The notes beneath the pieces were generated by a model, which saw only the letters and a program-made list of their open reading frames with translations, was not told the origin of the DNA and searched no databases. From Planctomycetota bacterium (GTDB lineage: Bacteria > Planctomycetota > Planctomycetia > Gemmatales > Gemmataceae), in NCBI GenBank assembly GCA_016191165.1, contig JACPPF010000018.1:1-64000 (forward strand): a DNA stretch of 64,000 bases, in the 5' to 3' direction. Position numbers and translations under genes: made by a program. Below are positions 30,068-36,073 of this stretch, piece after piece. Every line of letters begins with the position of its first letter. Position 1 is the stretch's first letter.

Positions 30068-30155
30068 GCCCGCGTCAGGTCTCGCTTGGCAGTTTCGCGC
30101 ACATCTCGCCAATCCGTTCCTTATGATAACCATCACGCCCAAAGGAGGTCACGCC

Positions 30156-30503
30156 ATGCCACAGAATATCGACTGGATGTACCACCGCAAGAGCTGAACG
30201 TCATGCAAGCGAGCTCAGGGGTTCCTTGAGCAATATGACCTGGAAGCGAAAACCATCGTGGATGCCAGCAAGCAGAAGCAAGGCAAGGCCGAGGCCCTCG
30301 CGCTGGCGAAGTCGGTCCGAACGATTCACGTCGCCAAGGGCAAGAAGTGCGTTACCTTCGACATGAAGAACGACCCACCCGATGACGCGACGATCCTGGC
30401 CCACCTCCTCGGCCCGACCGGTAACCTGCGTGCGCCGACCATCAAGAAAGGCACAACGCTCTACGTCGGCTTCAATGAGGAAGCGTATCGCGGGCTCATG
30501 TAG
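30156..30503 (+). CDS. ArsC-like thioredoxin-fold selenoprotein (UGA = Sec14)
   Basis: Read through the in-frame UGA at 30195-30197, this is a 115-residue protein starting MPQNIDWMYHRKS-U-TSCKRAQ. The UxxC pair sits where ArsC/Spx-like thioredoxin-fold proteins have their redox cysteine. The rest fits the fold: a cis-proline region (GNLRAPTIKKG) and a C-terminal VGFNEEAY. A near-perfect ribosome site AAAGGAGGT lies seven bases before the ATG, so translation clearly begins upstream of the UGA. The frame is open and well conserved in character on both sides of the UGA, and a SECIS-like hairpin follows it. The role is probably redox, perhaps arsenate or disulfide reduction (inference). A plain annotation would report only a truncated product from 30258. 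A nonsense mutation is the alternative. Confidence 0.85.
30195..30239 (+). promoter_or_regulatory. Bacterial SECIS element
   Basis: Right after the UGA, GCTCAGG (30213-30219) pairs with CTTGAGC (30225-30231), with one G-U pair, around a five-base loop GGTTC (30220-30224). A lower helix GTCAT (30200-30204) / ATGAC (30235-30239) stabilises it. The 22-base distance from UGA to the loop and the loop starting GGU match known bacterial SelB-binding hairpins. Confidence 0.8.
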
Positions 30504-31848: not shown

Positions 31849-33606
31849 TTAATCCGGCTTTGGTAAACGTACGGTGAAGGTGCTCCCCTGGCCAAGCGTG
31901 CTGCTGGCGCGAATGCCGCCTTGCATGGCCTGAACCAGGTGCTTGACGATCGACAGCCCGAGCCCGGTTCCGCCCATCTCGCGCGAGCGGGCTTTATCGA
32001 CGCGGTAAAAGCGTTCAAAAATGCGGGGCAGATCGCTTTCGGGGATGCCGATGCCGGTGTCCTGGACTTCCAGGTTGACATGACCATCCTCCGGCCACCA
32101 GTTGAGACGGATCACGCCGCCTTCGGGTGTGTATTTGACGGCGTTGTCCACGAGGTTATCGAGGATCTCGGAAAGCGCTTCCTGATCGGCCATCACCTGG
32201 ACGCTGGCTTTGGCGGATGAATCGAGGGTCAGCGTTTGTTTCTTGCCGCGGGCGCGGGCCTGATGGCGATCGATGCTGGCCTGAACCAGGTCGGCGACGA
32301 GGAGCGGCTTCAGAATCCAGTGCTGGTCGCCGGATTCGATGCGCGCCAGGCTGAGCAGGTCGAGGATCAGGGCGTGCAGGCGATGCGATTCTTCAAGCAC
32401 GCGCTGCAGGAATCGCCCGCGGTTTTCGACGTCGTCCATGCCGCCGTCGATGAGTGTTTCGACGCACGCCGCAATGACGGAGAGCGGCGTCTTGAGTTCG
32501 TGCGAGACGTTGGCGACGAACTCCTGGCGCAGCCTTTCCAGCCGGCGCAGTTCGGTGGTATCGTGGAACACGAGGACGGCCCCGCGTGCCGACTCGCCCG
32601 GGAGCTGGGCGACGTGCAACATCAGGGATTTGCCAGCCGCCTCGATGAACTCGAGGTTGCGTGGCGATTCACTCGATTCGCGCAACGTCGCTTGCACCAG
32701 GTCGAGGACGGCGCGTTGACGCACGATCTCCCAGAGCTTGCGCCCGGCCGCGTTCGTGGTGGAAAAATCGAGCATCAGACCGGCCCGATCGTTGGCGAAC
32801 AGGATGTCCTGCTCGCCGTCGATGGCGATGACCCCCTCGACCATGCTGCTCAGGACCGCCCGCAGTTGCTGGCGATCCTCGTCGAGTTGCGTGAACTGCC
32901 GAGCGAGCTGACTGCTCATGTGATTGAAGACGCCGGCGAGTCGGCCCGTTTCATCCTTGCGATCGATGTACACCTTGTGACCATAATCGCCCGCGGCGAT
33001 CGCACGGGCGCCATCGCTGAGTTCCTGGAGCGGCTGCGTGAGGCGCCGGGTCAATATCCAGGTGACGAACAAGGCCAGGAGAGCCGTCCCCGCCGCAGTG
33101 ATCCAGACGAGATTGCGCAAGCGAGCTGCGTCAGCAACGACCTCCGTCACCGGCAAAGCGACGCGCACATAGGCGACTTCCGAGGTGTCGGGTGAATGGG
33201 TGGCGACATACATCATGCTTTTCTGGACCGTCGTGCTGTACCGCGTGGCGACGCCATAGGGTGCGGTGCGCGACTGCTGAATCTCCGGACGCTTGAGGTG
33301 GTTGTCCAGTTCTTCGAGATCCTCACGATCGGTCTCGACCAGGACGGCGCCGTCCGCGCCGATCAGCGTGATGCGCGTATCGATCTTCCGGCGCAACGCT
33401 TCGACCTGTTCGCGCAAGTCGGTGACGGAACGGCCTCGCGCCAGCTCGCGCAACAGAATTGCCTTCGATTTGAGACGTTCCTCGATTTGCAAAAGCGCTT
33501 GCCGTTCCACCCACGAGCCAATTACCCCACCCAACACGCCGAGCGCCACGACGATGAGGATTCCAAACGCGAAGAACGTTTGCCAAAACATCGAGAGACG
33601 CGACAT
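31849..33606 (-). CDS. phoR: PhoR-like membrane sensor histidine kinase
   Basis: A 585-residue sensor kinase. Two transmembrane helices (near 10-32 and 165-185) bound a periplasmic region, followed by a HAMP domain (TRRLTQPLQELSDGARAIA), a PAS domain (about 240-340), HisKA with FVANVSHELKTPLSVIAAC, and an HATPase with NLVDNAVKYTPEGG, DTGIGIP and GGTGLGLSIVKHL. This is the PhoR/WalK architecture. It is divergent from pstSCA with Pho-box-like sites between, so phosphate sensing is likely (inference). The partner response regulator PhoB is not in the window. The ATG at 33606 begins the first hydrophobic segment. Confidence 0.85.
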   Translation of the reverse strand: MSRLSMFWQTFFAFGILIVVALGVLGGVIGSWVERQALLQIEERLKSKAILLRELARGRSVTDLREQVEALRRKIDTRITLIGADGAVLVETDREDLEELDNHLKRPEIQQSRTAPYGVATRYSTTVQKSMMYVATHSPDTSEVAYVRVALPVTEVVADAARLRNLVWITAAGTALLALFVTWILTRRLTQPLQELSDGARAIAAGDYGHKVYIDRKDETGRLAGVFNHMSSQLARQFTQLDEDRQQLRAVLSSMVEGVIAIDGEQDILFANDRAGLMLDFSTTNAAGRKLWEIVRQRAVLDLVQATLRESSESPRNLEFIEAAGKSLMLHVAQLPGESARGAVLVFHDTTELRRLERLRQEFVANVSHELKTPLSVIAACVETLIDGGMDDVENRGRFLQRVLEESHRLHALILDLLSLARIESGDQHWILKPLLVADLVQASIDRHQARARGKKQTLTLDSSAKASVQVMADQEALSEILDNLVDNAVKYTPEGGVIRLNWWPEDGHVNLEVQDTGIGIPESDLPRIFERFYRVDKARSREMGGTGLGLSIVKHLVQAMQGGIRASSTLGQGSTFTVRLPKPD

Positions 33607-33742
33607 GAAGCCGACTCCGCGCGACCAGCGCGGCCAAACGGTCGCGCTCGGGCTCCTACCATTTCAAATAGATATACGATTCGTGGCGAAGACTGGCCTA
33701 TGCCAAACCAACCCGAAGCGCAGGCAAGGCCATTCCCAAAAT

Positions 33743-33764
33743 CATCTTCATCGCATCTTCATCA
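33743..33764. promoter_or_regulatory. Pho-box-like direct repeat, distal
   Basis: CATCTTCATCG (33743-33753) is directly followed by CATCTTCATCA (33754-33764), an 11-bp direct repeat matching the spacing of PhoB half-sites. It lies between the phoR-like gene and pstS. Confidence 0.5.
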
Positions 33765-33820
33765 AACCAACATCGAATTTCCTTTTTGTCTTCTTATTTC
33801 ACTCCAGGGGGAATGATGTT

Positions 33821-33842
33821 TTCACGAAACCTTCACCAGGCG
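33821..33842. promoter_or_regulatory. Pho-box-like direct repeat, proximal
   Basis: TTCACGAAACC (33821-33831) and TTCACCAGGCG (33832-33842) again repeat the TTCAC core with 11-bp phasing, 82 bases before the pstS ATG. The position suits activation of pstS. Confidence 0.5.
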
Positions 33843-33923
33843 CAGGGTGAAAACACACGCCCAGGGCCGAAAATGCGCCTGACGTTCCGATGATTGTTCC
33901 CTACCGCTTCGGAGGACACCGCC

Positions 33924-34868
33924 ATGAAACGCTGGACCATTCTCGGCATCGCTATCGCATGGATTGGCTTCGGGGTGAGTTCGCCCGACTCCGCCGTCGC
34001 TCAAGGTAAAAAGCTCAGCGGCGAAGTCAAATGCGACGGATCGAGCACGGTGTACCTCATCACCGAGGCCGTTGCCGCCAATTTCAAAAAACTGCACGCG
34101 GGCGTCAACATCAGCATCGGTATCTCCGGAACTGGCGGCGGGATGCGCAAATTTGTGAACAACGAACTCGACATCTGCGACGCATCCCGAAAAATGAAGG
34201 ACGTCGAGGCCAAGGCCTGCAAGGCCAACGGCATCGAGTTCGTTGAACTCCAGGTGGCCTGGGATGGGCTGGCCGTGGTCGTCAACAAGAAGAACGACTT
34301 TGCTCCCAAACTGACTCTGGCCCAGCTCAGGAAAATCTGGCATCCCGACACCGATTCGTTCAAGAACGCTCGAACCTGGAAGGATGTCGATCCGACATTC
34401 CCCAATGAACCCCTTGCTCTTTGGGGCGCCGGCAAGGACTCGGGTACGTTTGACTATTTCACCGAGGCGGTCAACGGCAAGGAGCGCTTGATCCGCCAGG
34501 ACTACAAGGGAAGCGAAGACGACAACGTCGTCGTGACCGGCGTTTCCAAGAATCCCTATGCGATGGGTTTCTTCGGCGTCGCCTATTACACCGCCAACAA
34601 GAACTCCTTGAACGTGGTCGCCGTCGCCAAGAAGGCCGGCGAGAAATACTATGAGCCGACTGAAGCGAACGTGCTGTCCGGGAAATACCCGATCAGCCGG
34701 CCGCTGTATATCTACGTAAAGACGAAATCGCTGGCGCGCCCGGCGGTGCGTGAGTTCGTTGATTTTTATCTGCGCCGCGGCGATCTGGCCAAATCGGCCG
34801 GCTACGTGAAAATGAGCACGCTGCAAACGCTGCGCGTCCGCAAGATGTTCAATCAGGCCGTGAAGTAA
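33924..34868 (+). CDS. pstS: Phosphate ABC transporter substrate-binding protein
   Basis: A 314-residue periplasmic binding protein for phosphate. The ATG at 33924 follows GGAGG; a signal peptide with a cleavage site around AVAQG follows. Family markers include GEVKCDGSSTVYLITEAVAA, the SGTGGGMRKF loop (phosphate-binding Ser/Gly region), GKDSGTFDYF and YKGSEDDNVVV. It should deliver phosphate to the PstCA channel encoded downstream. The 191 bases between pstS and pstC hold a large palindromic element that could cause differential expression. Length is normal for the family. Confidence 0.92.
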   Translation: MKRWTILGIAIAWIGFGVSSPDSAVAQGKKLSGEVKCDGSSTVYLITEAVAANFKKLHAGVNISIGISGTGGGMRKFVNNELDICDASRKMKDVEAKACKANGIEFVELQVAWDGLAVVVNKKNDFAPKLTLAQLRKIWHPDTDSFKNARTWKDVDPTFPNEPLALWGAGKDSGTFDYFTEAVNGKERLIRQDYKGSEDDNVVVTGVSKNPYAMGFFGVAYYTANKNSLNVVAVAKKAGEKYYEPTEANVLSGKYPISRPLYIYVKTKSLARPAVREFVDFYLRRGDLAKSAGYVKMSTLQTLRVRKMFNQAVK

Positions 34869-34884
34869 CCGCGTTCGTGGCATT

Positions 34885-35025
34885 CGTTTAGCCGCAATGC
34901 CGTTTGTAGAAGAACACTTGACCAGCCCCACGCGCAAGCGTGGGGATTTGGGAGGCTGCCCCCCCCCCACGCTTGCGCGTGGGGCTAGTATCGCCCTGCT
35001 TGACGAACGGTATCGCGGCTAAACG
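34885..35025. repeat. Nested inverted-repeat element between pstS and pstC
   Basis: Outer arms of 23 bases (34885-34907 and 35003-35025) match as an inverted repeat at 20 of 23 positions. Inside, perfect 22-base arms occupy 34924-34945 and 34965-34986, and each arm is itself a hairpin with a GCAA or TTGC loop. The total length is 141 bases. It has the look of a small non-autonomous mobile element. Confidence 0.8.
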
Positions 35026-35059
35026 TGTCAAAACTTTCCCTTCACCCCGCGAGGTCCTT

Positions 35060-36073
35060 GTGGCAACGTCCACTCCGCCCGAACCGTCCACGTCGTTTCG
35101 CGATTGGCTGGCCCGGCGCGGCCCCCCCAAACGCGGCTGGGAAAAGCTCATCGAGTGGGCGCTGCTTTCCTGCGGGCTGTTCTCGATTGTGATCACCCTC
35201 GCCATCGCGTCGGTCATCCTGTTTGGTTCCTTTGAGTTCTTCACGCTCAAGACCTTGCGCGAGGATGGGCCGCAGGGCGCCAAGGGGCAAAACGTCGCCA
35301 TGTCCGGCGCTGAAATGTGGGAACGCTTCAGCACGTTCTGCACGGGCACCGAATGGACAGAAGAATCCGGCGTCTACGGCATCTGGCCGCTCCTGTCGGC
35401 GACGCTGATCGTCACGGTCGTCGCCGCCGCGGTTGCGATCCCGATTGGCCTGCTGACGGCAACCTATCTCAGTGAATATGCCTCTCGCCGGGTGCGCTCC
35501 ATTGCGAAGCCGACCCTGGAGTTGCTCGCGGGCATCCCGACCGTGGTTTATGGTTTCTTCGCGATCACGGTGGTCACGCCAACGCTGGCCCAATTCATCG
35601 AAGGGCTGGGCAATCCGAACAACCTCTTGAGCGGCGGCATTGTGGTGGGCATCATGATCATCCCCATGGTCGCATCGCTCAGCGAGGACGCGCTGCGGGC
35701 CGTTCCGCGCGCCCTTCGCGATGGGGCAATCGCCCTGGGAGCCAACAAATTCGAGACGTCGGTTCGCGTCGTGATACCCGCCGCTCTGTCCGGCGTGACT
35801 GCGTCGTTCTTGCTCGCCCTGTCCCGCGCCATCGGCGAGACGATGGCCGTCACTTTGGCCTGCGGCGAATCTCCCTGGATGACGCTCGACCCCCGCGAGG
35901 GCGCCGCCACCATGACCGGCTTCATCGTCCACCGGGCCATGGGAGATGTACCTCACTTTTCAACCGATTTCAACAGCCTCTTCGCGGTCGCGGCCGTGCT
36001 GTTCTTCATGACGCTTGCCATGAATATCATCGCCCAGAAGGTACTGCAGCGCTATCGGCAGGTGTACCAATGA
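35060..36073 (+). CDS. pstC: Phosphate ABC transporter permease PstC
   Basis: A 337-residue inner-membrane permease. It has one helix near residue 30-55, a periplasmic segment and then five helices. The permease signature is around EDALRAVPRALRDGAIALGA, with the preceding motif AGIPTVVYGFFAI typical of PstC/PstA. I prefer GTG 35060 (preceded by GAGGT) because the earlier in-frame codons lie in the palindromic element; about 40 residues would be added otherwise. It overlaps pstA by four bases (ATGA), so the two are translationally coupled. Confidence 0.9.
   Translation: MATSTPPEPSTSFRDWLARRGPPKRGWEKLIEWALLSCGLFSIVITLAIASVILFGSFEFFTLKTLREDGPQGAKGQNVAMSGAEMWERFSTFCTGTEWTEESGVYGIWPLLSATLIVTVVAAAVAIPIGLLTATYLSEYASRRVRSIAKPTLELLAGIPTVVYGFFAITVVTPTLAQFIEGLGNPNNLLSGGIVVGIMIIPMVASLSEDALRAVPRALRDGAIALGANKFETSVRVVIPAALSGVTASFLLALSRAIGETMAVTLACGESPWMTLDPREGAATMTGFIVHRAMGDVPHFSTDFNSLFAVAAVLFFMTLAMNIIAQKVLQRYRQVYQ

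Follow-up and report, generated by a model that had tools for sequence, protein, structure and literature searches.

A planctomycete ArsC/Spx-like gene with an in-frame UGA is a new member of the selenoprotein family NF041106

In classical ArsC arsenate reductases, three arginines that surround the active cysteine take part in catalysis. Their relative YffB keeps one ArsC-type arginine, and a role as glutathione-dependent thiol reductase has been proposed for it (PMC3169414). A related family, NF041106, is listed by the 2026 review PMC13188914 as 'Arsenate reductase-like protein' with a UxxC motif, among 119 selenoprotein families or subfamilies, and the entry cites the 2008 Global Ocean Sampling study PMC2398784. 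The relevant passages of these catalogues give the same family accession and UxxC motif as found for the gene analysed here, and do not describe the present lineage or the hairpin covariation reported below.

The gene lies in a 64,000-nucleotide stretch of a Gemmataceae genome (contig JACPPF010000018.1; hereafter the window). It was picked out by a reader of the raw sequence from three weak signs, namely a ribosome site, a UGA in a redox motif within an open frame, and a SECIS-like hairpin, and the reader pointed to a Cys/Sec ArsC-like family in planctomycetes. That family does exist; it is NF041106, and the passages of PMC13188914 and PMC2398784 that deal with it show that it was already catalogued.

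A UGA codon in a family with selenocysteine and cysteine forms

The full protein matches the NF041106 profile (ArsC family (seleno)protein, ArsC_rel_Se_1) over model positions 1-107 of 107 at 144.1 bits, the curated cut-off being 85 bits. Like the family, which has Sec and Cys forms and many planctomycete members, it carries the UxxC at the same position, and it differs by ordinary sequence divergence alone. The window gene thus adds a member to a selenoprotein family already known and is nothing categorically new; since NCBI has a curated model of the family, its own pipeline could call the gene. All 46 aligned members match the profile at E 0.001 or better. The profile's cut-off is exceeded in 80 of the 392 phylum genomes that were sampled and in 16 of the 21 closest relatives, mostly with a single TGA in both sets. 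Those relatives in the genome collection that carry a name are planctomycetes without exception, the closest being a Gemmataceae bacterium (isolate Baikal-deep-G160) at 82-83% identity.

The predicted ribosome site, ATG, TGA at codon 14 and 101-codon in-frame continuation (codons 15-115) were each found at the expected coordinates (Table 1). Codon 14 is the only in-frame TGA of the gene; if it is read as selenocysteine, the N-terminus becomes MPQNIDWMYHRKSUTSCKRAQGFLEQ... and a UTSC active site results, in which the TGA is paired with the cysteine of codon 17, as the proposed UxxC redox position requires. Because no start codon follows the TGA before a GTG at codon 35, a plain gene caller yields an 81-residue fragment, and the first 34 codons are lost together with the active site, as had been anticipated.

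Table 1 Coordinates of the gene and its features in the window
Feature	Position	Strand	Details	Basis
ArsC/Spx-like (seleno)protein gene	30156..30503	+	115 aa with TGA14 read as Sec; ATG start at 30156; stop TAG at 30501-30503	NF041106, Pfam ArsC
Shine-Dalgarno-like sequence AAAGGAGGT	30141..30149	+	ends 6 bases 5' of the ATG	sequence
In-frame TGA, Sec codon 14 of UTSC motif	30195..30197	+		homologue codon comparison
TGC codon 17	30204..30206	+	resolving Cys of UxxC, invariant in family	alignment
Truncated 81-aa ORF	30258..30503	+	GTG start at 30258; expected from ordinary gene caller	
SECIS-like upper hairpin	30213..30231	+	GCTCAGG (30213-30219) paired with CTTGAGC (30225-30231); loop GGTTC (30220-30224)	fold, pair counts vs Cys forms, covariation
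Extended SECIS-like element	30200..30239	+	with lower helix GTCAT (30200-30204) / ATGAC (30235-30239)	

We compared the codon-14 column in 52 members of the family. It holds TGA in 37 and a cysteine codon (TGC or TGT) in 15, so the Cys homologues that the original prediction had asked for are present. All homologues align across the UGA and start about 13 codons upstream of it, none beginning only past it, and the stretch before the TGA is conserved. On a maximum-likelihood tree the column has undergone at least six Sec/Cys changes, three of which are forced by well supported branches. The recurrence of TGA at one codon, the upstream conservation and the repeated Sec/Cys changes therefore indicate that the TGA is no local error and that cysteine is its functional equivalent. 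Alternatively, the UGA might really terminate translation, or reflect a sequencing error or decay, with only the 81-residue downstream frame made, or nothing. This would agree with an ordinary caller reporting only the GTG-started frame and with the absence of selD from the genome bin (see below), yet the identical TGA recurs phylum-wide in dozens of genomes, conservation extends over the part before it, and the downstream frame has neither the active site nor a clear ribosome site. We regard this alternative as exceedingly improbable; codon 14 almost certainly encodes selenocysteine. Computation shows here that the gene belongs to the family, that Sec and Cys stand against each other at codon 14, that the hairpin covaries and that the genome has the selenocysteine machinery with the exception of selD; we hold with high confidence that the window gene truly encodes a selenoprotein of NF041106.

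A covarying hairpin downstream of the UGA

The hairpin proposed to lie 22 bases after the UGA has the helix and loop described, and RNAfold closes one further pair beyond the upper helix; the distance of 22 nt is that of the loop, whereas the helix itself starts 15 nt 3' of the UGA. The lower helix of the extended element occurs in the window gene and its near relatives, yet its conservation is only partial, 56% of its cells pairing across 22 homologues. Taken alone the hairpin is weak evidence, because an equally good one follows about 2.7% of the 1904 TGA triplets in the window. It becomes strong because it covaries among the Sec homologues and is absent from the Cys homologues.

Of the upper-helix cells in the 22 Sec homologues that share the register of the window gene's hairpin, 91.6% pair, a percentage biased upward since these sequences were picked by hand and are approximately those with at least five of the seven pairs. 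Covariation is the stronger sign. Five of the seven pairs have changed on both strands; such double changes affect 17 cells, where shuffling gives 7.8, and the covariation score reaches 0.360, compared with 0.195 for the shuffled sets, none of 500 of which scored as high. Sliding the partner strand by one to three bases destroys this signal. The pair formed by columns 18 and 32 is U-A in 12 of the 22 sequences and G-C in the other 10, with zero mismatches.

All seven pairs form in 14 of 37 Sec members versus none of 15 Cys members. Pair formation in register exceeds what synonymous recoding predicts in the Sec members (5.2 observed, 3.9 expected) and equals it closely in the Cys members (2.3 observed, 2.4 expected). 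A freer best-hairpin score is likewise higher in Sec than in Cys members (p = 3e-6, by a statistic that ignores kinship); minimum free energies relative to synonymous recoding do not clearly separate the two forms (p = 0.08). An Rfam scan around the gene returned no match to a SECIS family and one chance match. As is looked for in bacterial selenoproteins, then, a stem-loop with an apical G lies close downstream of the UGA, and its helix covaries.

Five Sec members with a RAD-type motif in place of RAQ (L043, L051, L052, L053 and L058) lack the hairpin in the usual register; their UGA is apparently followed by another stem-loop, in a different register. With repeated Sec/Cys exchange inside one phylum and a hairpin lost along with the Sec codon, the family lends itself, as a natural series, to the study of selenocysteine gain and loss.

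Selenocysteine machinery in the genome

The search for sel genes succeeded in part. The window's genome contains selA (560 bits) and selB (362 bits), both well over their cut-offs, and a tRNA-Sec (selC; 73 bits) with anticodon TCA, but selD was not found in the bin, which is 95% complete in 183 contigs and gave three hits below the cut-off. From their reading frames and neighbours, these three weak matches are ThiL-, HypE- and PurM-like. In all six genomes of the same genus selD is over the cut-off, three of them having an in-frame TGA of their own. Since a gene neighbouring selD is also missing and the bin is incomplete, an assembly gap is the likely cause of the absence. The neighbour is a small gene near selD in G392 and G397 that looks, from its sequence, like one for a DTW-domain protein. 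Across genomes of the same genus or family (G392-G400), selD occurs either as a short gene with an in-frame TGA or within a frame of 760-1439 residues without TGA; these long frames may be fusions.

Among 28 genomes carrying the family, selB is present in 14 of 15 with the Sec form and 6 of 13 with the Cys form (Fisher p = 0.011). The lone Sec-form genome without selB comes from an assembly of 79% completeness. In one family, the six Cys-form genomes that are 99-100% complete all lack selB, and four Cys-form relatives from the same family or order keep it, so that the exchange of Sec for Cys can precede loss of the machinery.

Structure, likely role and gene surroundings

A confident structural model built from the family alignment (mean pLDDT 88, pTM 0.78) shows a strand spanning residues 7-10 and a helix that begins at residue 15, so that Sec14 would sit at the N-terminal end of the first helix. 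This is the usual active-site position of the thioredoxin fold. Spx and YffB/ArsC-related proteins are nearest to it among solved structures, by both sequence and fold; the TM-scores, near 0.55, are modest. The term 'ArsC-like' holds as the name of the family, but the closest known structures are of the Spx and YffB types and not arsenate reductases.

The protein could nevertheless be an arsenate reductase in which Sec14 acts as the nucleophile on arsenate. The NF041106 entry of PMC13188914 labels the family arsenate reductase-like, and the Pfam ArsC model is matched at 26.1 bits, narrowly above its cut-off of 24. Across the 46-member alignment the invariant residues are W7, Y9, R11, U/C14, C17, G86, P87, G89, L91, R92, P94 and G105; R11 and R92 are the only arginines among them, and the classical ArsC triad is lacking. 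Relatives of the YffB type (PDB 1rw1, 2kok) share the fold and the single conserved ArsC-type arginine near the active site with the window protein, and for these one-arginine proteins a function as glutathione-dependent thiol reductases has been suggested (PMC3169414). Brucella YffB differs in having one cysteine and no UxxC or CxxC pair. No ars genes were found among the neighbours examined. Arsenate reduction appears quite unlikely, and judged by its sequence the window protein is to be placed with Spx and YffB, not with the classical arsenate reductases.

The kinship with Spx suggests another possibility, in which the protein would be no enzyme but a Sec-based redox regulator that binds RNA polymerase and senses oxidants through a UxxC switch. 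Spx is the closest relative of solved structure by sequence (E 3e-10) and also provides the top Foldseek matches. Spx/MgsR proteins (TIGR01617; PDB 1z3e, 3gfk, 6gho) have in common with the window protein the thioredoxin/ArsC fold, a CxxC in the same place and the LR.P and VG[FY]NE motifs, the C-terminal VGFNEE of the window protein aligning with VGYNED of Spx. TIGR01617 is matched at E<=0.001 by 45 of the 46 members. The window protein, however, is shorter, has Sec in place of the first Cys, is only about 20% identical to Spx and scores far under the curated cut-offs of the Spx models, TIGR01617 included (22 of 123, 19.5 of 159 and 29.1 of 75 bits). We consider a regulatory role of this kind unlikely for the window protein, and the broader proposal, in which the NF041106 family consists of Spx-related transcriptional regulators whose redox action depends on selenium, very unlikely. 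Were the latter true, the oxidant sensitivity of a global planctomycete switch would be governed by the supply of selenium.

An oxidoreductase role, as a thiol/selenol-disulfide reductase, is what we think probable. For selenocysteine insertion, the catalytic steps and the substrate we infer the following scheme. SelB and Sec-tRNA(UCA) would decode UGA codon 14 as selenocysteine during translation, assisted by the hairpin downstream. This would yield a small protein with a thioredoxin fold, belonging to the Spx/YffB/ArsC superfamily, whose redox centre is a UxxC; Sec14, at the N-terminus of helix 1, would serve as the attacking selenolate and Cys17 would resolve the mixed selenosulfide. Its likeliest job would be thiol/selenol-disulfide exchange, reducing a disulfide or a peroxide-type substrate.

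The gene surroundings give no operon or functional clue because the neighbours are not conserved around homologues: a HAD hydrolase gene lies upstream, a gene for a Tll0287-like sensor downstream and phosphate uptake genes farther on, and no window neighbour was found to recur near homologues. Past the selenoprotein gene, at 31849-36073, are genes for a PhoR-like histidine kinase (minus strand) and for PstS-like and PstC-like proteins, the last two names resting on translated sequence only. In four other loci (L007, L009, L031 and L055) a small protein recurs just downstream of the Cys-form gene. Its copy in L009 has a YDGDCPLCN motif and, by eye, resembles DCC-type thiol-disulfide oxidoreductases.
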